Source of the DNA: Vitis vinifera
Lineage: Eukaryota; Streptophyta; Magnoliopsida; Vitales; Vitaceae
Length of the DNA stretch: 64,000 nt
Assembly (NCBI RefSeq): GCF_030704535.1
Contig: NC_081812.1
Location: 17,927,501-17,991,500 of the forward strand
Direction of reading: 5' to 3'
This document shows, one piece after another, positions 10,230 to 57,115 of this stretch (the stretch's first letter is position 1; every line of letters starts with the position of its first letter). The notes beneath the pieces were generated by a model, which had not been told where the DNA came from, ran no database searches, and was given only the letters and a program-made list of their open reading frames with translations. Both the position numbers and the translations under genes were made by a program.

Positions 10230-13200
10230 CACTACAAGGAAAAAGGTATATGGTGACATTTATAACGAGTCACCATAATCATAGGGTGTCACTACAACAT
10301 AACGTCACCTTCTCCACTGACATCATAGAGGGTACCAATTGGTGACGTATTTGGAAGTGACACCAAAGTAGATAAATGGTGACCCATTCGGAAGTGACAC
10401 CATATATTTCTAGTGATGATAGGGTGTCACATTAAATACATCATCTTTGAGTTATGATGTCACATTAAATGCATCACCTTTGAGTTATGGTATCACATCA
10501 TTGTAAATTATTGTGGAAGATATGATTGGTTTTAGTTGTTGATTTTTGTAATGCTTATGAATTAATAAGATTAACATGTTTATATTTTGTCCATAAATAT
10601 AACAATCATATTATATTTAACTCATTTTTCTGTAATGTTTATGGAATAACTCATAATACATTAATCATCTAATAATATTTGTATACCAAATGTTCACAAA
10701 AGGATAGTACGTCCAACATATCAAACCCATCAAAACTAAAAAAGAAGAGTGAATACATACCAAAACATGATTCAGAAATGTTAAAGATCCCAAGATTCAT
10801 GTATACCTCCATTTCATAAGCATAAAACTGGCTAACCATAAAATGACATAAAAGTCTCATCTAAAAATCTAAATTTCTCAGTTGCAATTAAAGTAACGTT
10901 TATGTCCTATAACGTATGACATAAGATTTACATTTAAAAACCCAAAATCTTGTTGCCTTCTTCTTTTTTATTCTCCATTTCACCCTCCCAAGAGTGTATA
11001 CTTGCATTTCAAAATTTAATGAGTTTTAGAGATTTTTATTGAAGAAAATAAACATGGATCGATGTTATCATAAATGAACAAATCTAAGAACTATTTTTTT
11101 TTTCAAATAGAAACATTATTCAAAGAATAAGCATTACTATACAATACCTATGGAAAAATTCATGTAGTAGCTAAGGGACTCACCATGCATGGTGATCATG
11201 ATGCATGAACATGATTCATGATTAGTTGTAGCACAAAAGTAGCCCATTCTCCTCTAATTTCATCGAATTCTACTTGAGAATATGTTTTTTTTTTTTATCA
11301 CCAAACTGAAATCAAATAAGAAAATAACATTAAAATGCATAACATTTGGAGGCCTAAAACTATGTACAATTCATTAAATAAGTAATACCTTTGAAGCAAT
11401 AATTGTAGGATAAAAAATTATCTCTTTAATGAATCTCATAACAAAGTAGCCACATTCGAACCCTCCTTCTTGTCTTGGACACTAATCGATCAATTATAAA
11501 ATAACATTAGTACTCACATATATAAATGGTGCAAATGCATAAGCTAATGTGTAAAGAAAAATTTTTGGATGTCACCTGCACTAGTTGCTAAGATGGCTCC
11601 CTCTTAGATGTTTTCTTTGCAAATATTCGAAGAACCCTATGTAAATAAGTTCAATGGGTACATTTTTAAAATAGGTAAATGTTATATGTTTTAATATATA
11701 TAAATAATCAAAAAAATGTGTTTGAGGTGAATGTATTTTTTTATTTAAAAATAATACTATGAAAAATAATAGGAAGAACTTACATGTTTACGATGTCATT
11801 TAAGTCCTCACATGGTTTGTGATGCACAGGGTCAAGATAATGGACTATCATTTTCCTTGGCTCAAGCACTACCTAAATATAAACCCTTTAAGTCCTCATA
11901 TCTATTTCTATTAACAAAATATAAAAACTTTCCAAAACTCAACTACTTAAATATAAAAACAAAATCAAATAAAATATCTAACTAATTGGATTTTAGAAAC
12001 TAAATAAACTATAAATAAACTAAATATAAAAACTAAATAAAATATCTATGCCCATGAATTAATTGAATAGGATAGAAAGACACAGAGAGAACATGGTTAT
12101 GGTTATGATTTCCATCTTATCATCTCCCGTCAATACCACACATGCCCATTTTAAGGTTGGACACTACTTTTGTTGCTAGACTTGGAAAGGGAACTTCAAA
12201 ATTGAAAACATAAATAAACCCTTCTGTAAAAAAAAATAACATTAAAATATAATTGAGCATTAAAATATTTACTCTCTTTCATCACTTTCATTTGAATATT
12301 AATAATCTCTTATTGAGATAGATACTTACAATTTAACAAAATAGAATTTCCTAATAATAAAAAATATAAAAATTTCTATTTCTATTAACAAAATATAAAA
12401 ACTTTCCAAAACTCAACTACTTAAATATAAAAACAAAATCAAATAAAATATCTAGCTAATTGGATTTTAGAAACTAAATAAACTATAAATAAACTAAATA
12501 AAATATCTATGCCCATGGATTAATTGAATAGGATAGAAAGACAAAGAGAGAACATGGTTATGGTTATTATTTCCATCTTATCATCTCCCGTCAATACCAC
12601 ACATGCCCATTTTAAGGTTGGACACTACTTTTGTTGCTAGACTTGGAAAGGGAACTTCAAAATTGAAAACATAAATAAACCCTTATGTAAAAAAAAATAA
12701 CATTAAAATATAATTGAGCATTAAAATATTTACTCTCTTTTATCACTTTCATTTGAATATTAATAATCTCTTATTGAGATAGATACTTACAATTTAACAA
12801 AATAGAATTTCCTAATAATAAAAAATATAAAAATTTCTATTTCTATTAACAAAATATAAAAACTTTCCAAAACTCAACTACTTAAATATAAAAACAAAAT
12901 AAAATAAAATATCTAGCTAATTGGATTTTAGAAACTAAATAAACTATAAATAAACTAAATATAAAAACTAAATAAAATATCTATGCCCATGAATTAATTG
13001 AAGATGATAGAAAGATACAGAGAGAACATGGCTATGGTTATGATTTCCATCTTATCATCTCCCGTCAATACCACACATGCCCATTTTAAGGTTGGACACT
13101 ACTTTTGTTGCTGGACTTGGAAAGGGAACTTCAAAATTGAAAACACAAATAAACCCTTATGTAAAAAAAAATAACATTAAAATATAATTGAGCCTTAAAA

Positions 13201-14372
13201 TATTTACTCTCTTTCATCACTTTCATTTGAATATTAATAATCTCTTATTGAGATAGATACTTACAATTTAACAAAATAGAAATTCCTAATAATAAAAAAT
13301 ATAAAATTTCTATTTCTATTAACAAAATATAAAAACTTTCCAAAACTCAACTACTTAAATATAAAAATAAAATCAAATAAAATATCTAGCTAATTGGATT
13401 TTAGAAACTAAATAAACTTAATATAAAAACTAAATAAAATATCTATGGCCATGAATTAATTGAAGAGGATAGAAAGACACAGAGAGAACATGGCTATGGT
13501 TATGATTTCCATCTTATCATCTCCCGTCAAAACCACACATGCCTTCCCGGATTGGTCCTTTTGGGGTTGGATACTCTCAACGAAATTCTATATCTCATTC
13601 CCACTTAGATACAAACAGAAAAATCATTCTTTTTTTTTCCTCTCTCGTTTTTTAGAAAGGATGAAGATTATGTGATAATAAATCTCAAAAAAATTATGTA
13701 CCTGTCATTCTCACACAAATACATATTAAAAATCATTCATTTTTTCCTGTTTTTCACTTTTTTTTAAAGACTTGATCATGTGTTTGGTTTAGATTAAAAA
13801 ATCAAAATCTACAGTTTTTTCTTCTATGTTAGAAGATTAAACCTAAATTTTTTTTCCCTACAACTCAAGAAAACACAATTCACAAAAACCTTAATACAAA
13901 GATGTTGAAACAAATAATATAATGACATTAATAAAAGAAAAAAAATGATAGATCCAAGAGATTTTGGGTTACCTGGGAGTCCACAAAGTGAAGAATGTCC
14001 GTTGTGAGCGTGTTGACTATGGATGGGTGAGAGAAAAGGTTGAAGAAGATCATGATTTTATATATAGGATTTATATATTGAGATTTTTTGGATTGTGGGT
14101 GAAATATGGAAACAATGGGATTTTTATATAGTATCCATCATTATTAATTCTAAAAGTGGGCTCATTAAGTTATAATATCTAAAAAAATTTATTTTATATG
14201 ATGTCACTTCCTAAAAAATGACACTATAAATATAAAATTAATATCATCTAACTACCTCAATTGAAGATTTTTTATATGATGTGTCACCTTTATTAATTAT
14301 AAACCCTATGGTGTCATTATTTTAAAAGTGACACCGTAAATAGTGACACCATAAACTATTTTTGTAGTAGTG
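10230..14372. mobile_element. CACTA (En/Spm-type) non-autonomous transposon
   Basis: The element is 4143 bp. It starts CACTACAAGGAAAAAGG and its inverted right end starts CACTACTACAAAAATAG, the family's diagnostic CACTA termini. The 3-bp target duplication AAT lies at 10227-10229 and 14373-14375. Subterminal repeats of the form TGGTGACA/GGTGTCAC crowd both ends (10250-10500 and 14200-14350), as expected for transposase binding. No transposase-like frame is visible. The interior carries about 465-bp tandem repeats. It interrupts the TRS120 fragment, so it is younger than the composite around it. Confidence 0.9.
11890..13545. repeat. About 465-bp tandem repeat, about 3.5 copies, inside the CACTA element
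   Basis: The marker ATGCCCATGAATTAATTG or close variants recurs at about 12049, 12509, 12984 and 13445, giving periods near 460, 475 and 461 bp. The copies differ by few substitutions. Each contains a conserved part with GAGAACATGGTTATGGTTATG and TCATCTCCCGTCAATACC, which might be old captured coding DNA, but no frame is open across a unit. Confidence 0.8.
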
Positions 14373-18830: not shown

Positions 18831-19897
18831 TTAGTTTTGGGATGGATGGGTTGATGACAAGTGAGATTTAAATACCATTCCAGCAGAGGGATTAGTAATG
18901 CTGTAACCGCCATCCACCACCAAGTTGATCCCGCTAACGTACTTGGAGTCATCGCTCCCCAGATACAAGGCTGCCTCTGCGATGTCTTCCGCCTCTAACA
19001 CCGCACCTTTTAGGTTGGCCGCAGAGGAAACTAACTCTTCAACCTTCCTCTTCTCCATTATTCCCAATCCTTTCTGTAACATAGGTGTTGCCACTCCGAA
19101 CGGAGATATGCAATTAACTCTTATCCCATATTGTCCCAACTCCACACATAAGTTGTTGGCAAGTCCCACCACAGCATGCTTCGATGCCACATATGCATGT
19201 GAGATCTCCTCCGAAACAACTGAAGCCACACTTGACGTAAATATAATGCATCCTGTCTTAGCTGGAATCATAACTCTAGCGGCATGCTTAGCGGCCAAGA
19301 AGGCCCCATACACATTCACATCGAAAACCCTTTTAAAGTTTGTGTTATCAGAGAGTATGATTCTTGACTCCATTTCGCCATGGACGCCGGCGTTGCTGAA
19401 CATGATGTCGAGTTTCCCATATTTGGATATGGCAGTGTCGACGGCGTTTTGGACGTCGGAGTCACATGTTACATCGCAGTGGACATGGAAAACGGTTTCT
19501 GCGGGACCAATTTCTTGGCAAAGGGAGCGCCCAAGTTGGTCTTGGACATCTGCCACTATGACCTTGGCACCATGTTTCACAAATAACTTGGCAGTGCAGG
19601 CGCCTATGCCACTGGCTCCACCAGTTATTAGTGCCACTTTCCCTGCTAACCTGCAATTCAAACAAAGGAAACATTTCATCTTTTACATATTTCCATGTGA
19701 AATGAATTAATTACATAAGAAATATCTCGTACCGATATTCTCAAAATTATCACATAATGATATGAAATATATTTGTTTTAGAAGATTAAGTAGCCAGGAG
19801 TACCTGAATCTGTTAATCAAAAAATGAAGATCATAAGCAAATTAAAAGCCTAACTATCATCGGCTTACCTCTGGGTGAGGGGAATGGCAGCACTCAT
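18831..19897 (-). CDS. SDR110C short-chain dehydrogenase/reductase, gene 2
   Basis: Exon 1 is 19869-19897 (MSAAIPLTQ), exon 2 is 18831-19650, and the 218-bp GT-AG intron splits the Arg codon, giving about 282 residues. The SDR core is complete: TGGASGIG (19-26), D44, NAG (96-98), N122, S150, Y163, K167. It is nearly identical to gene 3 across exon 2 but has a different intron and upstream region, which it shares with the truncated copy at 5343-5668. The probable role is NAD-dependent oxidation of a small secondary-metabolite alcohol in the cytosol, with the substrate unknown. The TATA position reads TACAAA instead of TATAAA, and CACGTG lies in the 5' leader at 19903-19908, so its regulation may differ from its twins. 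Confidence 0.92.
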
Positions 19898-28693: not shown

Positions 28694-29678
28694 TTAGTTT
28701 TGGGATGGATGGGTTGATGACAAGTGAGATTTAAATACCATTCCAAAAGAGGGATTAGTAATGCTGTAACCGCCATCCACCACCAAGTTGATCCCGCTAA
28801 CGTACTTGGAGTCATCGCTCCCCAGATACAAGGCTGCCTCTGCGATGTCTTCCGCCTCTAACACCACACCTTTTAGGTTGGCCGCAGAGGAAACTAACTC
28901 TTCAACCTTCCTCTTCTCCATTATTCCCAATCCTTTCTGTAACATAGGTGTTGCCACTCCGAACGGAGATATGCAATTAACTCTTATCCCATATTGTCCC
29001 AACTCCACACATAAGTTGTTGGCAAGTCCCACCACAGCATGCTTCGATGCCACGTATGCATGTGAGATCTCCTCCGAAACAACTGAAGCCACACTTGACG
29101 TAAATATAATGCATCCTGTCTTAGCTGGAATCATAACTCTAGCGGCATGCTTAGCGGCCAAGAAGGCCCCATACACATTCACATCGAAAACCCTTTTAAA
29201 GTTTGTGTTATCAGAGAGTATGATTCTTGACTCCATTTCGCCATGGACGCCGGCGTTGCTGAACATGATGTCGAGTTTCCCATATTTGGATATGGCAGTG
29301 TCGACGGCGTTTTGGACGTCGGAGTCACATGTTACATCGCAGTGGACATCGAAAACGGTTTCTGCGGGACCAATTTCTTGGCAAAGGGAGCGCCCAAGTT
29401 GGTCTTGGACATCTGCCACTATGACCTTGGCACCATGTTTCACAAATAACTTGGCAGTGCAGGCGCCTATGCCACTGGCACCACCAGTTATTAGTGCCAC
29501 CTTACCTGCTAACCTGCAAAACAAAAGAAGCATTAATTAGTACATGAGAAACAACATCTCATAAAGATATTTAAGTAGTCTGGAGTACTGAATCTGTTAA
29601 TAAAAGAAATGAAGATCACAAGCAAAAAGCCTAACTATCATCAGATTACCTCTGGGTGAGGGGAATGGCAGCATTCAT
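28694..29678 (-). CDS. SDR110C short-chain dehydrogenase/reductase, gene 3 (mosaic copy)
   Basis: Exon 1 is 29650-29678 (MNAAIPLTQ), exon 2 is 28694-29513, with a 136-bp GT-AG intron, giving about 282 residues. Exon 1, the intron and the upstream region match gene 1. Exon 2 from about 29490 leftward matches gene 2 (VIVADVQDQ, VHGEMESRI). All SDR motifs are intact: TGGASGIG 19-26, D44, N122, S150, Y163, K167. Only a few residues differ from gene 2. The gene therefore puts a gene-2-type enzyme under a gene-1-type promoter. The substrate is unknown and probably the same as gene 2's. The donor GTAATC is slightly weaker than the GTAAGC of its twins but is canonical. Confidence 0.93.
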
Positions 29679-29919: not shown

Positions 29920-32664
29920 TCACGTTAATTAAAAAAAAAAAATACTAGTGGCCATGTGGCCCTCGTTGACAAAAAAGCATCTACCGTTTCAGTAGTATAA
30001 CTTATTTAGAATCTTATATTTACATAATTTGCTTAATATTATATATTTAATCCATATATGTAATTTTATGATTGAATTTGTATTATTAATTAATTAATTA
30101 GTCACTGTGCATTATATATTAAATTTATTAATAAAATATGAAGTGAAGCCAAGTGACTTGTTGGAAAAGGAAAATTAGGTACAAAAGTATTTTATCAATA
30201 TTTGGGGTGATAAAGTTTATTACGATTTGTCAATATAACTTGATTTTAATGTATTTTTGGTGGATTTGAGTTGAGTATGATGATATTTATATCAAATTTG
30301 TATCGATTTGCATAACTTATTTAAATAAATAGTTTTTATGTTAATTGCATAATATGAATTTAACTTGAATTGATCTATTTAATAACGGTATTGATTAAAT
30401 TAATTATAATTTTAAACTATTTAACCACTTTTAAATTTATTTTTAAATAAATAGATCAATTGAGTTATTCACATATTTGGTTGCGACATTAGTTGTATAG
30501 ACTTATACCAAACTTAACTTGATTATTAAATAAGACCTGATTACTAAATGAGTTAAATAAGTTACATGATATATTGGTCGATTTCATAATTAGGTGATAT
30601 TTGGGTTAATGTTTTTAACACAATTATCATCTGTATCGAGTTTTAGATGACTTATGTAGTAAAATATTTAAGCTTTGACAAAATATGATCATGACTCATT
30701 TACGTGAATTGCCACCCCTAATCAATGTCTATATTTTTTTTTTCAAGTTAACAAAAGATTTGGTATGGAGGATTTTTGTGTTTAATACAAGTTACGCATG
30801 CCCATTCATCTTTTAATTTATTTTTTTAGTTGGCTTGAACCATACTACAATATACTTTAATCAATGGTACAATATGCTATTAAACATAATACAATATACA
30901 TTTTTCTTTTAATACTGTGAAAAATATAATAAAGTTTAGAATTATTAGAAGTTTAAGAAATATTGAGATTTACCATTTGTTTTTCTATTAAAAATAATTT
31001 GATGATATCATACCCTTGGTTCTTGTTTTGCATGGTTATCAGACCTGATCACAAAGCATTGATGCATTCAATACTCATTTTTTGAAAGCCCTTTTTATCC
31101 CAAGTATATCGACATACAACAAGGTTACTTCTGGTGCTTCAGTCATTCAATCATACCTTCCTACCAAAAAGATGATCGATAACAAAGGTAAACTACCCCA
31201 TGGTCTTGCATTCTAAAAAAAACATGGGTGTTTTATCTTTCTTTTTCTTACCAATCTCACTTTGTTTTTTATTGTTAATGTGGGTGGTGTCGTATAGTGA
31301 GCAACCAACAAAACATTGTCTTATTGTACGGTTTCTCTAATCATTATTTAGTTGATATAGTGGTTGTTATCGAGTCAAATCTATTTGCACGTGAACTTCC
31401 TTTTTAATATTAAGTTTACGTTTGATTGATTAGATATACCAAAAAATAAAAAAATAATATATCATATTTCATGTTTATTCAATCATAAGATGAGTTATCA
31501 TATTTCATCTTCAATTAAATATGAGATAATTATAAGGTAAGATATAAGATATCAATTATAAATTTATAATATATATATCAAAGTTCTAGAATCATATGGA
31601 TAAAAACTTCGGTAAAGGTTTTAAAGGATCCACTAAAAAGCGCATGGATAAAAATATGAAAAATTGAAGCAGTTACTATTGATCTTATACCCTAACAATT
31701 AGGTAATTATATATAACCTTTTTTTTATTTATAATTAATGGATTATGTAATAGGACTTCATGGCAAACTTTCCATCTACCTCAAAGCACACACATTACTC
31801 CCTCTTGTAGCAAGGAAAGAGTCCATGGCTCCAATTACATATCTTAATTGAAAAGTCTCCCAAAAACAATGTTTGCTCAATTTTGCTAATTTAATGGAAT
31901 CTAAGTATTATTCCTTCATTTTCTATACTAAAAAAATTGCTTGGAATTTTTTCCCATCGGAAAAATTTGTCAGATATTTTCATGGGTGATTTTACAGTAC
32001 ATACCTTGATGTCAATGGAATGTTTTTGGACGTTTTGAATTTAAAAAATGAATAAAATGAAATAAAAATGGATAAAATATGAAACTATAATTTCTTTATG
32101 TCCTTTTCAATTTTATCACCTTTGGAATAAAAAAAAAAAAAGAAGGGGGCAGGAAACATACAATTTTAATTTTTCATTAGGGTTCAACTTTGTTTTCATT
32201 TTTCTTAATAATCATATAAGATCAATCAAGATTAATTCCTTTTAATTTTATTTATCAAATATATTTAATGGAGAAATATGAATGATAAATATAAAAAAGT
32301 ACAATGTGATTTTGGTAAGCATTTATATTATGTTCAAATTTCTCATGTTTTTCCTCTTAGGCAAATCTATGATAAAAGAGTTTTTTTAGGAGGATTTATG
32401 GTAAAATATAATAATCTATGATAAAATATAATAATTTAATTATTTATAAAATATATTTATTTTAATATAATTAAAATTTTTAAAAGTAATTAAAAAAATT
32501 AAAATTCAAAAAAAAAAAAATTAAACAAATGAATATGAGAATTTATCATATCTGTTTCGCCCCATCAATGAGACAGGAATGAGAATTATTTCAAATAAAC
32601 GGGGTGGGGTTAGGATGGGGGCGACTCGTCCCGAACCCGCCCATTTGCCATCCCTAGTCACTTA
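29920..32664. other. Intergenic AT-rich DNA with MITE-like remnants
   Basis: No gene. The stretch ending at about 30722 (GAATTGCCACCCCTAAT) and the one ending at 32655 (CCCGCCCATTTGCCATCCCTAG) look like right ends of small hAT-type MITEs, but I could not pair them with left ends. The Gypsy element begins nine bases after the second one. Confidence 0.45.
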
Positions 32665-33472
32665 TGTAGGGACCCCTCCCCTTGGGAAACACGTGGCACG
32701 CAGCTCATGGTGACGCGTGGCACGTGTTATCAGCCGGACTATCATCATCCGGATCCCCCTAAAGATATGCATGGTACAATTATCCTATCCGGATCACCTC
32801 AAGGAAAGGCAAACGACGTTTCAGCTTCTCCTATCCAAGGAAGAGCAAAAAACGCTGGCAGAGCGTAGACATCCGGATAGTCTCCACAACACATCCGGAT
32901 AATCAGCATGAGCCATCCGGATATTGATCATCTGGATGATCAATTAAAGTAAAGCGAGTCTTACACGCAATCACGACAAGCAGCCATGGCCCACATCCTA
33001 TCACCTGCAGAGTGAGAAGACAAGAGGAAGTGACAGCAAGTCACTTCCCACGATCATTCTACATAATCACTTCCCACGATCTCTGACAGCCGCATTACCT
33101 ACCATGGTCTCTGACAGCCATTCGTAGGATGATAGTGCTCCTACTAACACCTATTGTCATCATCACAACAGAAAATATCTCTTCACCATAAATGAGAGGA
33201 ACAGTACCCCTGAAGCTGTATATATATGCCTTCGCATGAAGAAGAAAGGGCTGATCCCCCGGTAACCTCTTGATACCTAGTAAAAGGCCAACTGATTTAT
33301 ATATCTCTCCCTCACCATGGCTAACAAAACCATCGGAGGGTGCGTCCGGACACCCTGTCCGGATGCCTTTTTGCAGGTACAAACGCTGAATCAAGAACCC
33401 TTTGTGTGTTGAGAATCGCGTGTCTATCCATTTAGCAGCAACGTGGTCCACCTGATACGCGAGGTGACAACA
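32665..33472 (+). repeat. 5' LTR of the Gypsy element
   Basis: 808 bp, TG...CA. Read against the 3' LTR it differs at six positions, all transitions, with no indels. It contains several ATCCGGAT/GTCCGGAC words and a TATATATA promoter motif. Confidence 0.97.
33218..33226 (+). promoter_or_regulatory. TATA motif of the 5' LTR
   Basis: TATATATAT about 255 bp before the LTR end, a likely U3 promoter for the genomic RNA; the same motif is at 42909 in the 3' LTR. Confidence 0.55.
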
Positions 33473-33473
33473 T

Positions 33474-33491
33474 TGGCGCCGTCTGTGGGAA
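33474..33491 (+). promoter_or_regulatory. Primer-binding site
   Basis: TGGCGCCGTCTGTGGGAA lies one base after the 5' LTR. TGGCGCCGT is complementary to a plant tRNA 3' end, tRNA-Asp being the most likely; the primer identity is inferred. Confidence 0.8.
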
Positions 33492-33528: not shown

Positions 33529-35814
33529 ATGGCCACACCTTCCCAAAGTCGATCATCTGGTAGAAAGGAGGAAGATAACCACGAATGGCGTCAGGCCATC
33601 GAAAAAAGACAGTTGGCGAACGAAAAACAACTAAGAGCTCTCCTCCAGGAGACGGAGAGGTTAAGGGAAGAAAACGCGGTGTTACGCATTCAAGCCTCAA
33701 CTTCAGGCTCTCCTCGTCGTCAGCGTTCAAGGGGCCAGGTGGCAAACTCTAGGCCAGAACCAGAATCAATATATCCTGGGTCAACAGGAGTTGTCCCAAG
33801 AGCATACAACGCAAGGCCCCATGAGCCACGCACACCCATGCCTCGAGCTCCCCGTGAGGAAAGCTCAGATTCCACTCATTTTTCAGCAAAAAGACAACGT
33901 GATAGAAAATCACAGTTGTCAAGTTCTATGCGCGCAAGACTAGGCCCACAAGAGCCTGGGAGATCAAGGCCACCAGTAGCCACAACCCGGGCACCACGCC
34001 CCGATCCTGTGATCGCTCACATGGTGCAGAACGTACCTCCGCATCGTGACCCCATGGTCACCCCAGCGATGCGGAACGTTCACTCACACCTAGCGGAACG
34101 ACCAGCTGGGAAAAACCTCCCAAACGAGCCACCCATTGGCTCCATTAGCAAAAGGCTGGATGACATGCTCTCCACGCCCTTTTGCTCTCATATCACCCAT
34201 TACGAGCCCCCAAGGGGATTCCTCGTACCAAAGTTTTCCACATACGATGGAACCAACTATCCCTTCGATCACATCATGCACTATCGACAGCTTATGACGC
34301 TCGATATTGGCAACGATGCATTATTATGCAAAGTATTCCCCGCCAGCCTTCAAGGGCAGACCCTCTCATGGTTTCATCGCCTACCTCCTAACTCTGTTGA
34401 CAATTTAAGGGACCTCTCTGAAGCATTCGTGGGACAGTACTTATGCTCTGCTCGACACAAGCAGAATATCAGCACCCTCCAGAACATAAAAATGAGAGAC
34501 AACGAATCCTTGAGGGAATTTGTGAAACGATTTGGCCAAGCCGTACTCCAAATAGAGGTTTGCAGCATGGATGCTGTCCTACAGATCTTCAAAAGAAGCA
34601 TCTGTCCAGGCACCCCATTTTTCGAATCGCTGGCAAAAAAACCTCCTACAACGATGGACGATTTGTTCAGACTCGCTAACAAATATTCAATGCTCGAAGA
34701 TGACGTACGTGCAGCCACTCAACAAGTTTTGGTTGCCGGACAGGCTTCTAGAGATAACGCGGACAGACATGCCAAACCTCCGGACCGGCCAAAACCAGTT
34801 GACCGGAGGCAGGACGAGCCGAGTCGTCCAGATAGGCCGCCCATCACACCCCTATCCATATCATACGAAAAACTTCTCCCAATGATCCAAGGGTTGTCCG
34901 ACTTCAGGTGGCCTAGACCCCTCGAAACGGACCCATCTATAAGAGACCGCAGCAAGAAATGCGCCTTCCACAAAGACCATGGTCATATAACAGAGACATG
35001 TCGGTCCCTCCAGTATCTAGTTGAAAGGCTCATCAAAGCAGGACATTTAAAACAGTACCTCCGCTCAGATACTGGAGGAAGGGACGTATCTCAGCATCAT
35101 AACTCTGGGGCCCCGAGGGCCCCAGTCGCCCCCAAGGCTGTCATAAACTATATCAATGGGGACCCGTCTGACGAGGAATACGATTCCAGGCGTAAAAGGC
35201 AAAAATTGCTGCGGGCCGCGTCGATACGCGAACGCATCAATTCCATCCGGCCGGGTCTTACTGGAGAGGGCCCTCGCCCCATAGATGGGACAATCATTTT
35301 CCCACCAGTAGATCCCACCCGGACGCTACAGCCACATCGCGACGCCCTCATCCTCTCCCTAGAAATAGGAGATTTCGATGTAAGACGTATCTTGGTTGAC
35401 CCAGGCAATTCAGCCGATCTAGTACAAGCATCAGTCATTGGCCATATGGGACATAGTCTCGCGGGTCTCGAAAACCCCGGACGAATCTTATCCGGATTCA
35501 ACCGATCATCAACCACGTCCTTAGGAGACATTATACTGCCGGTCCAAGCTGGCCCAGTCACTCTCAACGTGCAATTCTCAGTGGTACAAGAGTTATCACC
35601 CTTCAATGTCATCTTGGGACGCACATGGCTTCACTACATGAAAGCCATCCCGTCCACATATCATCAAATGGTGAGTTTCCTCACCGACGAAGGGCAAACT
35701 GACTTGTATGGCAGCCAGTTAGCCGCTCGTCAGTGCTATCAAATAGCACGTGAGGCAGTCGCTAACCAGGAGGATGCATCTCCCCCTGAGCCTAGCATTG
35801 CACACGACCAATAG
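33529..35814 (+). CDS. Gag-protease of the Gypsy element
   Basis: The frame encodes 761 residues from the ATG at 33529 (MATPSQSRSS); the open frame extends slightly upstream without an ATG. A charged, proline-rich N-terminus precedes the retrotransposon gag core (around SLQGQTLSWFHRLPPNS to FVKRFGQAVLQI). A zinc-knuckle-like CAFHKDHGHITETC follows. The C-terminal third is an aspartic protease with active site LVDPGNSADL (family DxGSS/A) and the flap-side block FNVILGRTWLH. It processes Gag and Pol and forms the particle in the cytoplasm. It ends at TAG 35812-35814, after which the same frame stays open into pol, so this is the short product of a possible read-through polyprotein. Confidence 0.93.
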   Translation: MATPSQSRSSGRKEEDNHEWRQAIEKRQLANEKQLRALLQETERLREENAVLRIQASTSGSPRRQRSRGQVANSRPEPESIYPGSTGVVPRAYNARPHEPRTPMPRAPREESSDSTHFSAKRQRDRKSQLSSSMRARLGPQEPGRSRPPVATTRAPRPDPVIAHMVQNVPPHRDPMVTPAMRNVHSHLAERPAGKNLPNEPPIGSISKRLDDMLSTPFCSHITHYEPPRGFLVPKFSTYDGTNYPFDHIMHYRQLMTLDIGNDALLCKVFPASLQGQTLSWFHRLPPNSVDNLRDLSEAFVGQYLCSARHKQNISTLQNIKMRDNESLREFVKRFGQAVLQIEVCSMDAVLQIFKRSICPGTPFFESLAKKPPTTMDDLFRLANKYSMLEDDVRAATQQVLVAGQASRDNADRHAKPPDRPKPVDRRQDEPSRPDRPPITPLSISYEKLLPMIQGLSDFRWPRPLETDPSIRDRSKKCAFHKDHGHITETCRSLQYLVERLIKAGHLKQYLRSDTGGRDVSQHHNSGAPRAPVAPKAVINYINGDPSDEEYDSRRKRQKLLRAASIRERINSIRPGLTGEGPRPIDGTIIFPPVDPTRTLQPHRDALILSLEIGDFDVRRILVDPGNSADLVQASVIGHMGHSLAGLENPGRILSGFNRSSTTSLGDIILPVQAGPVTLNVQFSVVQELSPFNVILGRTWLHYMKAIPSTYHQMVSFLTDEGQTDLYGSQLAARQCYQIAREAVANQEDASPPEPSIAHDQ

Positions 35815-35820
35815 CAATTA
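35809..35820 (+). promoter_or_regulatory. Probable stop-codon read-through signal between gag-pro and pol
   Basis: CAATAGCAATTA: the amber stop sits in the exact context CAA-UAG-CAA-UUA known from tobamoviruses (consensus UAG-CAR-YYA), which permits a few percent read-through in plants. The reading frame is the same on both sides and no ATG opens pol. This is the expected way to make a small amount of Gag-Pol. Confidence 0.8.
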
Positions 35821-38800
35821 TTGGGTCCGGCGGACAAAGATCCCCCGGCAGCGGATCCCTTACAAACAATCCAAATCTCAGAAGAGAATGATCACCTCAC
35901 GAATATCAGTTCCCTCATGACGCAAGAAGAAACTCAGAGCATACAAAATATCCTTCGAAGCAACCAAGACATCTTCGCATGGACACATTCGGATATGAAA
36001 GGAATTCATCCCTCTATTGCCTCTCACAACCTTAACGTCTTTCCAGCAGCCAGACCCATTCGACAGAAGATTAGACGCTTTCATCCGGATAGACAAAGAG
36101 TTATCCAAGATGAAATTAACAAGTTGTTGAAAGCCGGATTCATCAGAGAGGTATCTTATCCGGATTGGTTGGCAAATGTAGTAGTGGTACCAAAGAAAGA
36201 GGGCAAATGGCGAGTCTGTGTTGATTACACCAATCTCAATAATGCATGTCCAAAAGACAGTTTTCCCTTACCACGAATAGATCAAATTGTGGATTCCACT
36301 TCCGGGCAAGGGATGCTCTCTTTCTTGGATGCCTTCTCTGGATATCACCAAATTCCCATGTCTCCGGATGACGAAGAAAAAACAGCATTCATAACGCCAC
36401 ACGACCTCTATTGCTACAAAGTCATGCCATTCGGACTAAAAAACGCTGGCGCCACGTATCAAAGATTGATGACTAAAATATTCAAACCTCTGATAGGCCG
36501 CTTGGTCGAGGTATACATTGACGATATCGTGGTTAAAAGCAAAACTCGAGAGCAGCATATCCTCCATTTACAAGAAGTTTTTTACCTCTTGCGAAAGTAT
36601 GGCATGAAGCTAAATCCTTCCAAATGTGCCTTTGGCGTGAGTGCTGGCAAGTTTCTGGGATTTATGGTCAGCCAAAGAGGCATAGAAGTCAGCCCGGATC
36701 AAGTCAAAGCAGTCATGGAGACACCTCCTCCCAGGAACAAAAAGGAGTTACAACGCCTCACAGGCAAGCTCGTTGCATTAGGGCGTTTTATAGCCCGCTT
36801 CACTGATGAGTTGCGACCTTTCTTCTTAGCGATACGAAAAGCTGGAACGCAGGGATGGACGGACAATTGCCAAAACGCGTTGGAAAGAATTAAACATTGT
36901 CTTATGCATCCACCCATCTTGAGCAGCCCCATCCCAAAGGAGAAGTTATACATGTATCTAGCTGTCTCAGAATGGGCAATCAGCGCCGTTCTATTCCGCT
37001 GCCCTTCACCAAAGGAGCAGAAACCTGTCTACTATGTCAGCAGGGCATTGGCAGATGTAGAAACCAGGTATTCAAAAATGGAGCTAACAGCCTTAGCTCT
37101 TCGAAGTGCTGCCCAAAAGCTCCGCCCCTATTTTCAAGCCCACCCAGTGATTGTACTGACCGACCAACCCCTTCGTAGCATTCTACACAAACCAGATTTA
37201 ACTGGGCGAATGCTACAATGGGCCATCGAATTGAGCAAATTTGGAATCGAATTCCAACCCAGATTATCCAAAAAAGGCCAAGTAATGGCCGACTTCGTGC
37301 TCGAATATTCACGAAGACCCAACCAGCACCACGAGTCAAGTGAACAGGAGTGGTGGACACTATGAGTTGACGGAGCCTCACGCTCATCGGGCTCTGGAGT
37401 TGGGCTCTTACTACAGTCCCCAACTGGGGAACATCTGGAGCAAGCCATCCGGCTGGGATTCTTCGCGTCTAACAATGAAGCAGAATACGAGGCCATCCTG
37501 TCCGGATTGGACCTCGCCCTTGCGCTATCCGTCTCCAAACTTCGGATCTACAGTGACTCGCAGCTAGTGGTAAGGCATGTCCAGAAGGAATATGAGGCTA
37601 AGGACTCACGCATGGCGCGATACTTGGCCAAAGTAAGAAGCACCTTACAGCAATTCACCGAGTGGACAATCGAAAAAATCAGGCGAGCTGACAATAGGCA
37701 CGCTGACGCTTTGGCCGGCATAGCTGCCTCCCTCCCTATCAAAGAAGCCATTCTACTGCCCATACATGTGCAAGCCAATCCCTCTGTCACAGAAGATTCC
37801 ACTTGCAACACCATTGAGGCAAACCAAACGGATCATCAAGAATGGACGCATAATATTGCAGAATATCTCCGGGCAGGCACTTTACCCGACGATCCTAAAC
37901 AAGCGCACAAAATCCGGGTGCAAGCTGCCCGTTTCACCCTGATCGGGGGGCACCTGTACAAGCGATCCTTCACAGGACCTTATCTTCGCTGTCTTGGGCA
38001 TTCAGAGGCCCAGTATGTGCTAGCTGAATTGCATGAAGGAATATGCGGAAATCATACGGGAGGACGATCCTTAGCACATAGAGCTCATTCACAAGGGTAC
38101 TATTGGCCAACAATGAAGAAAGACGCGGCAGCATATGTCCAAAAGTGCGATAAATGTCAAAGATACGCTCCCATTCCACATATGCCATCAGCAGCATTGA
38201 AATCGGTCTCAGGCTCATGGCCTTTCGCGCAGTGGGGCATGGACATAGTGGGATCCCTCCCAGCAGCACCTGCCCAGAAGAAATTCCTCCTTGTCGCCAC
38301 TGATTACTTCAGTAAATGGGTAGAAGCTGAAGCATATGCAAGCATCAAAGATAAAGATGTCACCAAATTCGTATGGAAGAACATTGTTTGCCGCTTTGGA
38401 ATTCCCCAAATCATCATAGCTGACAATGGTCCACAATTTGACAGCATTGCATTCAGGAATTTCTGTTCGGAATTGAATATCCGGAATTCATACTCCACGC
38501 CACGTTATCCTCAAAGCAATGGCCAGGCGGAAGCCACAAACAAAACTCTAATCAATGCCTTAAAGAAAAGGCTGGAGTAAACCAAAGGGAAGTGGGTGGA
38601 GGAGCTACCCGGCGTCCTATGGGCCTATCGAACCACACCCGGACGACCAACAGGAAATACTCCTTTTGCCCTCACATATGGAATGGATGCAGTCATTCCC
38701 ACTGAAATAGGTCTTCCTACTATCCGGACTGATGCAGCAAAACAAAAAGACGCCAACACGGAACTAGGAAGAAATTTGGACTGGGCAGACGAAGTCAGAG

Positions 38801-39078
38801 AAAGCGCGTCCATCCGGATGGCAGATTATCAACAAAGGGCATCAGCGCATTACAATCGAAAAGTTAGGCCCAGAAACTTCAAAAATGGTACGCTAGTACT
38901 TAGAAAAGTTTTTGAAAATACTGCTGAAGTAGGCGCGGGAAAGTTCCAAGCCAATTGGGAAGGACCCTACATAGTGTCTAAGGCAAACGAAAATGGAGCC
39001 TATCATTTACAAAAGCTAGATGGCACTCCGTTACTCAGACCATGGAATGTGTCCAATTTAAAGCAGTACTATCAGTAG
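35815..39078 (+). pseudogene. Pol of the Gypsy element: RT, RNase H, second RNase H, integrase, with two in-frame stops
   Basis: One reading frame, continuous with gag-pro, runs to TAG 39076. Reverse transcriptase shows LDAFSGYHQI (about 36330), MPFGLKNAGATYQ and the catalytic YIDD (about 36512). RNase H follows to about 37330. A second, archaeal-type RNase H begins at VDGAS (37366) and includes EAEYEAIL and YSDSQLVV. Integrase has an HHCC finger (about 38028-38160), catalytic D in WGMDIVG (about 38240), D in ADNGPQF (about 38420) and E in NGQAEATN (about 38530). TGA at 37363 falls at the start of the second RNase H and TAA at 38578 falls after the integrase core. Neither has a leaky context, so both look like later nonsense mutations. 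Confidence 0.9.
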
Positions 39079-39214
39079 AAAGTATACACAAGTGCAAATG
39101 AGAAAGAAGTATGTTTTATTGATATGAGTAAATGTAATTACAAAGAGATCTCCGGACCACAAAAAATACAAAAGGAAAAATTACAGCAGAAAAATTGCAA
39201 AAAGAGATAAACTA

Positions 39215-41645
39215 TCAGGGAGCGGGCTTCTCATGGAGCTTCTTTTCTTCACCCGGAGGAATTGAAGGGGTATCTCGCTTAATGCCGTTCTTCTTCATGC
39301 AGCAGCGATACCCAAAGATAAACGTATCATCCACTTGTTGCTGGTAATCCGCTGCAAGTTCCTCTCTTTCCACAGCAAACTCCCGTTCAAGTTCCTCTTT
39401 TTGCACATCCAGACGCAGCTGCAAGTCTTCCTTCTGTTTCTTTTCTTTCAAAACTTCTGTCCGGAGTTGACTCAATTCATCCCTTAGCCGGGCTGCCTCA
39501 CCCTCCGCCTCATGAAGGCGGCCCGTAGTTGATTCTTCTCGACCCTTTGCCTCAGCCAACTCCACCCGGAGGGCTTCATTTTCCTCTCGCATGGTGGATA
39601 GACTGGCCTCAGCCTCCTCCATTCTCAGACGCAGTTGATTTTCAATCTCTTGGCGCCGAGAGGAGAAGGTCCTCATATAGTTTGCAGTCTGCAGCAACTG
39701 AGTAAAAAGATCGTGTTGTTGAGACATGCTGCGGAGGCCCCTCACCAGCTGACACACAAACAAGAAAAGCAAAGACATAAATCATACTACAACAAACACA
39801 TCAGTGCAACAAAAAGTCAAAAAGCAAGAACACAAGACAACGATATACCGTTTCTATCATATCAAACATCTGAGCAGAGGGCTTGATGGCTTTCCAGTCA
39901 GGAGTAATCTGCTTTAACTTAACTTCCAACTCCGCGTAGCTGAAAGGGCTAGCAGGAGCGGCATCATCAGCAGATTCCTCCTCAGATGAGGAAGCTGAAG
40001 GTAACTCTTGTCCCGGAATCGGAGCCCCCATATCTTCGTCCGGACACATAGGTCCGGATGCATCCTCAGCCGGAATTATTGCCAGAGCGGCTGAGGTCTC
40101 AGTAGCCATCTCCACCTCGCCTCCATCCGGATGAGCGTCATGGGCAGAAGCGCAGCTAATTTCAATCTCTTGCTGCCGCTCTTGAAGCCGCTCAAAGAGT
40201 CTGGACTGTAGATCGCGCGTCAAACGCGGCTTCTTGAGGGGAGGCCCTTTCACCAGGACTATGGCCAAGCGATCCGGGTCGTCGGAAGGCTGACTTTGGG
40301 TTTCTGCCCCCGCTTCCTCCAACGGGGCCGTTTCAGCTGCATCAACATCCGGATTAAGGTTGCCCGGATGGTTGATAGATGCAGCTTCCTCAGCCACGAT
40401 AGCCAGGCGCGCAGCCGCGACTAAGGAATGACCTGAGTGATTCAACCCCGATATGCGTCCGGGGCCGCTTGAGATAGAGTGCGGAGCAGCATTTACTGGC
40501 TCCTCTATCATTACCTCCCCCTCATAGGTAGTTTGTGGAGGAGGAAACTCCTTGGGAGGAGTGGGTTCCTTCACATCCTTCCCATGCTTCTTCACTAGCT
40601 TCCCCCTCTTTCCTGGAATTTTCTTTGAAGGAGGGTCCGGACCCCCCTTCTGTCCGGGAGCCTTCCGGATAGTGCCTTCAGTTTTTTTCTGATCTCTATC
40701 CTCCAGGAGCTTTCGCCGCCTTTCAGCGTCAGCCTCTTTAGCTTCCTGATAGAGGGGGAGCTCCTTCACAGTATAATGCTCCCCAGACACTATCTCATCC
40801 TTTGCCAGTTTCCTAGGAAGAATATTGATAACATATTCCTGAGGCTCCCGGACGACCTCTATCAAATTCCGCGCGGAAAGCAATGTTTTGTAGGCCCTCT
40901 CCTTGGGATCTATTTCGAATAATTTGCAGACGCAGGCAAAGGACGCCTTTTCCACCCAATCCACAAGGTGGCCCCTCAATTCCAAACCTGCATTGTCAGC
41001 AACAAAAGGTGAGAATTCCGTCCGGAAAAATCAGAAAAAATCAGCAAAGCAAAATCCGGACACAAAAAATCGCAAAACAAGATTACCCGGAATTTTTAAG
41101 GTATAATTCGGAGAAAAAGGCCTCGACGGATGCTGCGATAGCCCCGCCCATCCACCCCAGACTGCCACCAGCCCCTTCGCCCCTCCCTTTGTCGAATCTG
41201 GTAGTTCTGTCACCATTTGAAGGGAGGGCAGGTGGGCGGACACACTGAAGATATCATTCTTTGCTTTCTTCAGGGAATAGACAAAGAACACTTCCAGTAG
41301 CGTCAGGTCGAGGCTGTACAGCATGTTGATGATGCTGCATCCCATCAGCACCCGGACAAGGTTGGGATGAATGAAGATGAGGGGAATCTGAGAGAAGTGG
41401 AGGAATTCCTTGAACAACGCCGGCAGAGGGAACCGGAGCCCCGCGTTGAATTGTTCCTTTGTGAAGAGGATAACGTTTTTTCCACCTTTCTCAGTAGGCA
41501 TAACCGCCTCCTCGTTCACCAAGTCTATCAATACGTCATGGGGGATGCGGAATCGCTCCCGGAACTCCTTCGCATTTAATTTGTCTATCGCCTTTTCGCT
41601 AGCCTCGCTGACCCGGGCAGATGAAACAGTATTTTTTGGAGTCAT
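39215..41645 (-). CDS. Antisense three-exon gene inside the Gypsy element
   Basis: Three minus-strand exons join in frame. Exon 1 is 41087-41645, exon 2 39849-40987 and exon 3 39215-39748, with GT-AG introns of 99 and 100 bp, for about 743 residues. Exon 1 (MTPKNTVSSARV) has a globular region around FRIPHDVLIDLVNEEAV and LPALFKEFLHFSQIPLIFIHP that resembles the plant 'putative gypsy type transposon' domain (Pfam Transposase_28). Exon 2 is acidic, Pro/Lys-rich and probably disordered. Exon 3 is a long Glu/Arg/Leu coiled coil (RLRMEEAEASLSTMREENEA). Extra antisense frames downstream of pol are known in Tat-type elements; their function is unknown. A TATAAATAG lies at 42115-42124, and a possible leader intron spans 41672-41905. 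No internal stops occur, in contrast to pol. Confidence 0.8.
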
Positions 41646-42114
41646 TTCTTACCACAAAGCCAAAGCAAAATCTACATACAAAAGCAATACAACCAATCAA
41701 ACCAAGCAGTCTGAAAATACACAAACCCTAACCCAAAACAGTCAGAAAAACCCCTCAAAAACCCCTCCAAAACAACAACAAAGTACCAACATTCAACAAC
41801 AATTGCAAACGACTCGTCCAAAACAACGCCCAAGCAAGCCAGAAAACAAGTGTAAAGAACCAGCAAACGCAACCAAAGGAACGGCAGTAGCAAAGAGATA
41901 CGTACCAAATACAGCACCGAAGAAGAAGAACGGGTACCGCCTTGATACAAAATCACCAGCAGCAAACCAACAAAGTCGCGATACAAAAGCACTGGTACAA
42001 AAGAGCTTTCGGAGTTTTTTTTCTCAGAAAAGCAAAGGGCGCAGAAAAAAGCAGTAAGAAAAAAGGCTCTCAAGAGAATGCAGTAGGAAAAAATACAAAA
42101 AGAGGTACAGTGCC

Positions 42115-42124
42115 CTATTTATAG
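42115..42124 (-). promoter_or_regulatory. TATA box for the antisense gene
   Basis: CTATAAATAG on the minus strand, about 470 bp upstream of the antisense ATG. A donor-like GGTACG (41905) and acceptor TATGTAG (41672) could remove a 234-bp leader intron. Confidence 0.55.
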
Positions 42125-42341
42125 CAGGACAGCCCCTCGGAAAGCCAAACCAACAGCCATGTTATCATTGAAACGACATATTGCCTGGGGATACACAGGG
42201 TCGGCGGCTCGTCATAAATACCTTTTTTTGGCTTCTGCACCCCTACTTGCCACGTGGCCCAGCCAAACGAAGGGACATCTTCAATTTTCAAAAGCCAGTT
42301 ATTTTTAACCCGCCCATTTTTTCGGGCAAAATAGGCAAGTT

Positions 42342-42352
42342 AAAAAGGGGGG
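42342..42352 (+). promoter_or_regulatory. Polypurine tract
   Basis: AAAAAGGGGGG ends three bases before the 3' LTR and is the plus-strand DNA primer site. Confidence 0.88.
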
Positions 42353-42355
42353 CAA

Positions 42356-43163
42356 TGTAGGGACCCCTCCCCTTGGGAAACACGTGGCACGCAGCTCATG
42401 GTGACGCGTGGCACGTGTTATCAGCCGGACTATCATCATCCGGATCCCCCTAAAGATATGCATGGTACAATTATCCTATCCGGATCACCTCAAGGAAAGG
42501 CAAACGACGTTTCAGCTTCTCCTATCCAAGGAAGAGCAAAAAACGCTGGCAGAGCGTAGACATCCGGATAGTCTCCACAACACATCCGGATAATCAGCAT
42601 GAGTCATCCGGATATTGATCATCTGGATGATCAATTAAAGTAAAGCGAGTCTTACACGCAATCACGACAAGCAGCCATGGCCCACATCCCATCACCTGCA
42701 GAGTGAGAAGACAAGAGGAAGTGACAGCAAGTCACTTCCCACGATCATTCTACATAATCACTTCCCACGATCTCTGACAGCCGCATCACCTACCATGGTC
42801 TCTGACAGCCATTCGTAGGATGATAGTGCTCCTACTAACACCTATTGTCATCATCACAACAGAAAATATCTCCTCACCATAAATGAGAGGAACAGTACCC
42901 CTGAAGCTGTATATATATGCCTTCGCATGAAGAAGAAAGGGCTGATCCCCCGATAACCTCTTGATACCTAGTAAAAGGCCAACTGATTTATATATCTCTC
43001 CCTCACCATGACTAACAAAACCATCGGAGGGTGCGTCCGGACACCCTGTCCGGATGCCTTTTTGCAGGTACAAACGCTGAATCAAGAACCCTTTGTGTGT
43101 TGAGAATCGCGTGTCTATCCATTTAGCAGCAACGTGGTCCACCTGATACGCGAGGTGACAACA
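42356..43163 (+). repeat. 3' LTR of the Gypsy element
   Basis: 808 bp, same length as the 5' LTR, with six transition differences; followed by the target duplication ACTTA. Confidence 0.97.
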
Positions 43164-43168
43164 ACTTA

Positions 43169-45045: not shown

Positions 45046-46043
45046 CTACGACAAGAGAGTTTTAAAAACCGATCCAAAGGAGGGATTAGTAATGCTGTAA
45101 CCGCCGTCTACCACTAGGTTCATCCCGCTGACATACTTGGAGTCATCGCTCCCCAGATACAAGGCTGCCTTTGCGACATCCTCCGCCTCCAATACTATAC
45201 CTTTTAGGTTGGCTGAAGAAGAAACCAAGTCTTCAACCTTGCTCTTCTCAATCATTCCTGCTCCTTGTCTTAACATGGGTGTTGCCACTCCAAATGGAGA
45301 TATACAATTAACTCTTATCCCATATTGTCCCAACTCCACACACAAGTTGTTGGCAAGTCCCACCACAGCATGCTTCGATGCCACATATGCATATGGGATC
45401 GCCCCCTCCGCAACAACGGAAACCACACTTGCAGTAAATATAATACATCCTGTCTTAGCCGGAATCATAACTCTAGCGGCATGCTTACCGGCCAAGAAGG
45501 CCCCATACGCATTCACATCGAAAACCCGTTTAAAGTTTGTGTTATCAGAGAGTATGATTCTTGACTCCATTTCGCCTGAGATGCCGGCGTTGCTGAACAT
45601 GATGTCGAGTTTCCCATACTTGGATATGGCAGTGTCGACGGCGTTTTGGATGTCAGCGTCACATGTTACGTCGCAATGGACGTAGAAAATGGTTTCTTCG
45701 GAACCAATTTCTTGGCAAAGGGAGCGCCCAAGTTGGTCTTGGACGTCTGCGACTATGACCTTGGCACCATGTTTCACAAATAACCTCGCAGTGCACTCGC
45801 CTATGCCACTGGCTCCACCTGTTATTAGTGCCACCTTGCCTGCTAATCTGCAATTCAAAGAAAAGAAACATTTCATCTTTTACATATTTCCCACGTAATG
45901 GTATGAAATATATTTGTATTAGCAATAGTCTAGATTGTGTATTTACTGAATGTGTTCATACAAAAATTAAGAGAATAATTTAGTAAAAAAACCCAGCTAT
46001 CATCAACTTACCTCTGTGTGATGGGAATTGCAGCACTCATCAT
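45046..46043 (-). CDS. SDR110C short-chain dehydrogenase/reductase, gene 4
   Basis: Exon 1 is 46012-46043 and exon 2 is 45046-45847, with a 164-bp GT-AG intron. Two adjacent ATGs give either MMSAAIPITQ or MSAAIPITQ; the second (46040) aligns with the paralogues and gives 276 residues. Motifs are TGGASGIG (19-26), D44, NAG, N122, S150 (FTAS), Y164 and K168; one extra residue before the catalytic Tyr (AEGAIPYAY) separates it from genes 1-3. The C-terminus ends at FKTLLS and lacks the last few residues of its relatives. It is clearly diverged from genes 1-3 but keeps full catalytic capacity, so it may act on a different substrate. The TATA-equivalent position reads TATGAA, a weak match. Confidence 0.92.
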
Positions 46044-49120: not shown

Positions 49121-50046
<926 letters not shown>

Positions 50047-55748: not shown

Positions 55749-57115
55749 ATGAGTACTGTTACTTCTTCGTTTGCATCCCCCTCCAAAAGGTAAACCTCTT
55801 TTTTATTTTTGGTACGCCCGAAATCATTCACGAACTTTTAAGCTCAGGCCCACTGTATTCCTTTACATCTACGTTGCTTAATTTCTTTTCTTACTAATTC
55901 CCATACTTCCTTTTAAAAAATCAGAATGGTTTACCATCTTCATATCAGTGGCCGGCACTTCTTTGATCCTAATGCATTCCATTTTCACACACCATTTCAG
56001 GGAAAAGCTTAGCCCACCCGTGATTTTCGATAAATGAAAATATCCATGTCATTTTTTTTAACCTGTTGTTAGCATATACTATATGTAATAGGTGATCAAA
56101 TTTTAAAAATAAAAAATTTAGAATTAATAAAAAAAATAAAAAGAAGAAGAAGAAAGAGACAGGTTTTGGGCTTGGGGATGGCTGCTATGGAAGTGTGTTT
56201 CCATGATCCAATGTAATACCGAGTACTTGTAGGTGGACTAGTACACAAGTAGTAGTTTTACTCGCCGTGGGATCTGCGTTGGATCTCGGTATATATGTAT
56301 ATGCATGGTTAATGTATTCTATTTTCAGGCTAGAAGGCAAGGTGGCAATTGTTACAGGTGGAGCAAGCGGCATTGGAGCAAGCACTGTGCGTCTTTTTTG
56401 GGAGAATGGTGCCAAGGTTATAATTGCTGATATTCAAGATGACCTTGGACAGGACATTACCAATAAGCTCGGTCAAGATGTTAGCTACATCCATTGTGAT
56501 GTATCAAATGAAGATGATGTGCAGAATCTTGTTGACACCACCATTTCCAAACATGGAAGACTCGATATCATGTATAATAATGCAGGGATCCTAGACCGCC
56601 ACCTTGGGAGCATCTTAGATACCCAGAAATCAGACCTGGACCGGCTTATTGGGGTTAACTTGGTTGGGTCTTTCCTAGGAGCCAAACATGCTGCAAGGGT
56701 CATGATACCTCAGAAAAAGGGCTGCATACTATTCACAGCCAGTTGTTGTACATCAATTGCAGGCATTTCAACTCATTCCTATGCAGTGACCAAGTATGGC
56801 ATTTGGGGGCTTGCTAGGAACTTGGCTGCTGAGCTCGGGCAATATGGGATAAGAGTAAACTGCGTCTCCCCTTATGGCTTGATTACTGGCATGGGGCAGC
56901 AGGGGCTCACCAGTGAAGAGGTAGAGGCAGCAGAGGCATCCTTGAGTGAGATGGGGAATCTCAAGGGAGAAGTTCTCAAGTCTGAGGGTGTTGCAAGGGC
57001 TGCACTCTACCTGGCTAGTGATGAAGCGAGTTACGTGAGTGGGCTCAACCTTGTGGTGGATGGAGGCTTCAGTGTAGTCAATCCTACCATGATCAAAGCT
57101 TTTAATATGCATTGA
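55749..57115 (+). CDS. SDR110C short-chain dehydrogenase/reductase, gene 6 (plus strand)
   Basis: Exon 1 is 55749-55789 (MSTVTSSFASPSK), exon 2 is 56329-57115, with a 539-bp GT-AG intron at the family's conserved split Arg codon, giving about 275 residues. Motifs are TGGASGIG (23-30), D48, NNAG (97-100), N124, S152, Y165 (YAVTK) and K169. It is the most diverged member ([25 protein letters not shown]) and the only one on the plus strand. The intron position rather than sequence identity ties it to the cluster. The upstream in-frame ATG at 56267-56329 lies in the intron and is not used. A tandem decayed copy follows it. Confidence 0.92.

Follow-up and report, generated by a model that had tools for sequence, protein, structure and literature searches.

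A stretch of 64,000 nucleotides from the grapevine (Vitis vinifera) genome (the window, from whose first base positions are counted below) contains a long terminal repeat (LTR) retrotransposon of 10.5 kb that encloses the dodecamer CAA TAG CAA TTA at 35809-35820, at the border between its gag-protease and pol regions. Comparison of many copies makes it very probable that the TAG at 35812 works as a programmed leaky stop, selected throughout the Gret1-type families of grapevine and acting through a linear context of the tobamovirus type. Most ribosomes would terminate at this codon and release Gag-protease, while a minority would insert an amino acid at the UAG and continue in the same frame to make Gag-protease-reverse transcriptase-RNase H-integrase. 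The signal would be the linear sequence CAA-UAG-CAA-UUA itself (class CARYYA after the stop; R, purine; Y, pyrimidine), acting without a conserved nested RNA structure, and the outcome would be particles rich in structural protein and protease and poor in polymerase. We infer the read-through, its rate, the tyrosine inserted and the benefit for assembly, the tyrosine by analogy with tobacco mosaic virus. Little is known of the means by which plant gypsy elements balance structural protein against enzyme, and the sequence here points to one mechanism, down to its exact twelve bases. Gret1, the insertion behind white grapes, very probably belongs to the same family, and annotation may split such polyproteins or treat them as broken.

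As a preliminary description of this DNA had reported, the dodecamer and a frame that stays open from it into reverse transcriptase can be read directly in the sequence. The same description found no ATG on the way, which holds at the junction proper but not beyond it: the first in-frame ATG after the TAG is at 35917, 35 codons downstream and still 5' of the reverse transcriptase domain. The frame, open from 33436, is interrupted by the TAG at 35812-35814, a TGA at 37363-37365 and a TAA at 38578-38580, and ends at 39078. The two later stops were rightly said to lack a comparable context, being followed by GTTGAC and ACCAAA, neither of which fits CARYYA. By our own arithmetic the chance of CARYYA after a random stop is about 0.2% at the window's G+C content of 33%. 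In a single copy such a hexamer is suggestive, and it is conservation among copies that decides.

All DNA comparisons were made within the Vitis vinifera genome (495.6 Mb, 21 contigs). A close set of 30 loci, window copy included, was drawn from 40 scored matches to a 601-bp junction (521 candidates) and read in frame over 34000-37600. A stop occupies position 35812 in 29 of these copies (28 TAG, 1 TAA), and both the preceding codon, CAA, and the following six bases, CAATTA, are the same in all 30. At any other codon a stop occurs in at most 2 of 30 copies, with 19 stops among the 35,970 remaining codon cells of the interval. The preliminary description had asked whether the two later pol stops are private to the window copy. 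The TAA at 38578 is present in none of 20 other copies, and the TGA at 37363 is shared with one more copy (2 of 30, window copy counted). With these two extra stops the window copy is probably defective in its own right. Because the ranking of matches favours window-like copies, which differ from one another by a mean of 4% in pairwise comparison, the close copies alone tell little about the context.

A wider view was obtained with a pattern of fixed flanks (up to 2 mismatches) around nine free bases, namely the stop and the next six. It matched 292 sites genome-wide, and its reversed control matched none. Among 100 of the 292 sites that were listed, hand counts gave 96 TAG, 2 TAA and 2 TAT at the stop, and CARYYA at every site (97 CAATTA, 2 CAGTTA, 1 CAATCA). 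In 30 listed pattern copies, 82-97% alike to the window, the position is again a stop in 29 and the hexamer CARYYA in 30, with other stops each in at most 2 of the 30. The samples overlap slightly, four places of the pattern copies (L031-L060) being also in the close set (L001-L030) and L094 being identical with L044. More distant junctions were collected with two protein queries, P0091 and P0104, 67% and 62% identical to the window protein. From these, 36 rows (20 + 16) were picked by hand with preference for distant or low-scoring ones, and their junctions alone were compared, together with that of the window (37 in all). The codon at the stop is TAG in 34, TAA in 2 and TAT in 1 (36 of 37 stops); the next six bases are CAATTA in 34 and CAACTA, TAATTA and AAATTG in one each (35 of 37 CARYYA); the preceding codon is CAA in 34, CGA in 2 and CAT in 1. 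Of the 36, 33 agree with the window at 54-91% of the bases compared (up to 275), many coming from families that are 54-75% alike, and three shifted or rearranged junctions are 37-43% alike in a gap-free count. The family-wide conservation that the preliminary description had proposed to look for was thus found in all three samples, and neither a common sense codon nor free variation of the six bases was seen, which supports its suggestion that the stop is selected rather than accidental.

Shared descent could in principle produce the same picture. The stop might be an accident inherited from a master copy, with enzyme supplied in trans and no selection on either stop or context; non-autonomous clusters do exist in the Retand lineage (described in PMC11963269), and close copies 4% apart are not independent. 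We consider this very unlikely. In the distant junction set (without L063, L072, L074 and L090, which are shifted or rearranged behind the junction) the ratio of nonsynonymous to synonymous differences (pN/pS) is 0.37 between the stop and the first ATG of the window copy and 0.34 further downstream. Judged from these values, the sequence immediately 3' of the stop codes for protein and is under purifying selection. Moreover, stop and context persist across families whose silent sites behind the stop differ by 56-71%, and 27 of the 37 junctions are left after a 90% redundancy cut.

The conservation reaches silent positions. In a gap-free alignment of 23 lineages (the same four rows omitted), the mean entropy is 0.11 in the dodecamer and 0.76 outside it, and each of the 146 other 12-column stretches has a higher value. 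For the silent positions of codons -1, +1 and +2, a summed entropy as low or lower is reached by 55 of 100,000 random triples. Glutamine is always CAA at -1 (25/25) and +1 (26/26), in contrast to a mixture at +20 (15 CAA, 7 CAG); TTA encodes 26 of the 27 leucines at +2, while four codons are used at +16; and across 18 other conserved codons the commonest synonym has a mean share of 0.77, the codons at +9 and +10 being invariant as well. Near-fixed silent positions in the flanking codons are the trace expected of selection on an RNA signal. They also bear on the suggestion that the conserved item is the protein sequence DQ-QL, for example a protease site, and not read-through. The residues D, Q, Q and L are kept in 22, 25, 26 and 27 of 27, as that suggestion would have it, but the stop itself is conserved and the silent positions of codons -1, +1 and +2 are nearly fixed, so that we regard a purely protein-level explanation as exceedingly unlikely.

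Three alternatives to the linear context were considered: an RNA structure, a splice site and a separate start. No conserved nested RNA structure was found behind the stop (consensus -1.0 kcal/mol, four pairs; the method covers nested structures, pseudoknots lying outside it). A hairpin around the stop, CCAATA-GCAAT-TATTGG, was considered and rejected: it folds hardly better than shuffled sequence (z -0.35 and -1.0), and other families do not preserve its 3' arm. Translation of pol from an RNA whose stop has been removed by splicing, with the AG of the UAG perhaps serving as acceptor, would follow the example of Ogre elements, for which an intron between gag-pro and reverse transcriptase is described (PMC6317226). 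An AG is present in the stop in 92% of 37 junctions and at +96 in 81%, and GC, a rarer donor dinucleotide, is conserved at -87, -90 and -98 (82-89%). On the other hand, no conserved GT donor occurs within 100 bases upstream of the stop, the range in which donors were sought (best 40% of 35). There is also no Ogre-type non-coding spacer between gag-pro and reverse transcriptase, both sides being coding, and the conservation of CARYYA extends six bases past the AG; splicing is therefore highly improbable. Finally, pol might be started separately behind the stop, by re-initiation or internal entry. Considering ATG starts, we found none that is conserved: the stretch holds no ATG in 13 of 37 junctions, and in the rest ATG falls at eight different places. 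Coding constraint also acts on the bases between the stop and the window copy's first ATG, and a separate start appears extremely improbable. Since the sequence behind the stop is coding, with no conserved ATG or nested structure in it and no conserved GT in the 100 bases upstream of the stop, same-frame read-through in a linear context is the simplest account.

Predicted proteins provide a second line of evidence. Among the best 120 of 212 protein matches, of which those with a species name are from Vitis, mostly V. vinifera (P0101 and P0107 are nameless), 73 end at the stop, 71 of them exactly; in 70 of the 73 the last residue is Q, and identities go down to 62%. Vitis riparia supplies 10 of these 73. 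In database proteins that read on, the residue at the stop position is Y in one and W in one. Searches of viral contigs and genome contigs gave no relatives outside Vitis. At the level of frames, hand counts found a length of exactly 792 amino acids in 33 of 97 Gret1-type rows, and both Gret1-type places with frames above 1000 amino acids have TAT instead of a stop at the junction. A search of the same genome with the gag model returned a single frame of at least 1500 amino acids in 25 of 150 rows (hand count, irrespective of lineage).

Several observations weigh against a programmed leaky stop. Among the close copies, 230 of 1,197 codon-spaced 12-base windows (the dodecamer counted) vary as little as the dodecamer does. 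Codons +9 and +10 (35839-35844) are also invariant at silent sites, so that invariance need not mark read-through. CARYYA is lost in two of the fetched copies, L064 and L075, and the preceding codon is not CAA in three, two of which have CGA (L088, L093). Decayed copies are among the rows aligned, and the anchored comparison is gap-free. The DNA compared is all from one genome; predicted proteins of the genus Vitis represent other species, and 47 of the 120 listed proteins, which are gene models, end elsewhere, ten passing or nearly reaching the stop and 37 ending or diverging earlier. Finally, a sense codon, TAT, stands at three genome places (C1:25694284, C9:6125127 and the C14:2420477 region). 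That all three sense variants encode tyrosine would fit selection for the residue inserted by read-through, three cases being too few for proof.

The features of the element are as follows (window positions).

32660-32664, no strand: left 5-bp target-site duplication, ACTTA, read from the sequence
32665-33472, forward strand: 5' LTR (TGT...ACA), pairing with the 3' LTR with 6 differences in 809 aligned bases
33473-33491, forward strand: probable primer-binding site adjoining the LTR, assigned by position alone
33529-35814, forward strand: gag-protease frame from first ATG to TAG, open from 33436, with gag domain PF03732
35809-35820, forward strand: putative leaky-stop signal CAA-TAG-CAA-TTA, from sequence and copy comparisons
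35815-37365, forward strand: pol part 1, with linker, reverse transcriptase, RNase H and terminal TGA, from frames and domain matches
37366-38580, forward strand: pol part 2, with second RNase H-like domain, integrase and terminal TAA, from frames and domain matches
38581-39078, forward strand: last part of pol (part 3), without Pfam match, from frames
39215-41648, reverse strand: three antisense frames (39215-39781, 39801-41030, 41031-41648) in the region from pol to the 3' LTR, from reading frames
42342-42352, forward strand: polypurine tract adjoining the 3' LTR, read from the sequence
42356-43163, forward strand: 3' LTR, from LTR comparison
43164-43168, no strand: right target-site duplication, ACTTA, read from the sequence

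Among Ty3/gypsy retrotransposons, the element is of the Gret1 type and of the Retand kind. Gag (PF03732) lies 5' of the TAG, and reverse transcriptase, RNase H and integrase lie 3' of it. Protease models had no match in the window, and a protease was found in 5 of the 120 listed relatives (P0043, P0048, P0073, P0097 and P0120); with the protease placed through these relatives, the order gag-protease-reverse transcriptase-RNase H-integrase of Ty3/gypsy elements fits. A second RNase H-like domain (PF13456, E 1.4e-18), a trait of the Tat group, precedes integrase at the start of the third frame. The region between pol and the 3' LTR (39079-42355) is 3.3 kb long and carries three antisense frames, which matches the description of Retand elements (2.9-6.6 kb in the account of PMC11963269). 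In the antisense frame 41031-41648, a match to PF04195 (TRP28 domain) is sub-threshold (15.5 bits, cut-off 26.2, E 0.021). The two LTRs are 99.3% identical, and their six differing sites are all transitions (divergence K = 0.0075). Rates of 1.3e-8 and 2.5e-9 substitutions per site per year are used for LTR dating, and with these the insertion would be about 0.3 or 1.5 million years old, respectively.

The preliminary description had proposed that the stop sets the ratio of Gag to Gag-Pol. A role in setting a ratio would fit a programmed leaky stop, but the partners need restating: with the protease 5' of the stop, the ratio set would be that of Gag-Pro to Gag-Pro-Pol. A more ambitious version has the leaky UAG as ancestral and selected in Gret1-type elements (perhaps in all two-frame Retand elements) and read by a tyrosine tRNA, with protease on the abundant side and reverse transcriptase, RNase H and integrase dosed. 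We offer this tentatively, rating it as plausible yet slightly short of probable.

Elsewhere in the window, direct repeats of short range, tandem or overlapping and 92-96% alike, occupy 11898-13543. Six frames are similar to one another and by eye resemble short-chain dehydrogenases (GKVALITGGASGIG): 4133-4972, 18834-19682, 28697-29536, 45049-45879 and 49124-49951 on the reverse strand and 56207-57112 on the forward strand. The retrotransposon lies between the third and the fourth.

A copy on C2 (L079) has the same CAA-TAG-CAA-TTA and agrees with the window at 88% over 275 bases around the junction. The parts of its LTRs that were compared are 83-86% alike to the window LTR, the ends of the element are about 10.4 kb apart (by hand), and its 3' LTR ends about 180 bp (also by hand) before a MYB-type frame, MESLGVRKGAWIQEED...NYLKPDIKRG. 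We take this frame, recognised by eye, to be probably VvMybA1. If so, the C2 copy is Gret1, the white-grape insertion. Gret1 is reported to sit at VvMybA1 in white grapes (PMC9097378) and is named as one of four Retand reference elements (PMC11963269). The window copy shares the dodecamer with it but belongs to another subfamily and has two further stops.

A close functional parallel is tobacco mosaic virus, which likewise has UAG-CAR-YYA with CAA on both sides of the stop, the context alone directing read-through (as presented in PMC2754532 and PMC2194720). In a plant dual reporter that context is given as allowing 32% read-through, another type I context giving 11%, and tyrosine was found at the stop in a second assay (PMC2754532). 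The viral stop splits the replicase, whereas that of the grapevine element splits gag-protease from pol, and here read-through is predicted.

According to the preliminary description, plant Gypsy elements mostly use one continuous frame or a frameshift, a generalisation that overlooks precedent: leaky stops have already been proposed in plant retrotransposons. The SIRE1 stop of soybean is reportedly a UAG with CARYYA, about 5% leakage, located between pol and an envelope-like gene. SIRE1 is of copia type and is cited for an in-frame stop with claimed read-through, and in its group such stops are placed at gag/pol or pol/env (PMC2194720). For rice gypsy elements, the RIRE2 paper (Ohtsubo 1999) is cited for read-through candidates (PMC2754532); RIRE2, compared here by description, has antisense frames and is named beside Grande and Retand (PMC11963269). 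It could be the same thing as the grapevine signal. Plant surveys mention two-frame elements in some lineages, the intron of Ogre being the one mechanism stated in the accounts consulted (PMC6317226), and for Retand clusters the account in PMC11963269 gives gag and pol in one frame in 59% and in two frames in the rest, with no mechanism stated there. The portions of the literature covered by our searches hold no report of a tobamovirus-type signal in Gret1 or Retand.

In murine leukaemia virus the protease lies 3' of the stop, whereas in the grapevine element it lies before it. The virus resembles the element in having a same-frame UAG between gag and pol, but relies on a purine-rich spacer and a pseudoknot (as summarised in PMC2194720), where the grapevine junction has no conserved nested structure. 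Tca2 and VdLTRE5, fungal elements of copia type, also have a same-frame gag/pol stop, but it is UGA and lacks CARYYA (as described in PMC3441728 and PMC2194720). The parts of the grapevine arrangement are thus known; within the literature searched, what is new is that a Ty3/gypsy element has a context of the tobamovirus type where gag-protease meets pol, and evidence for it from many copies.
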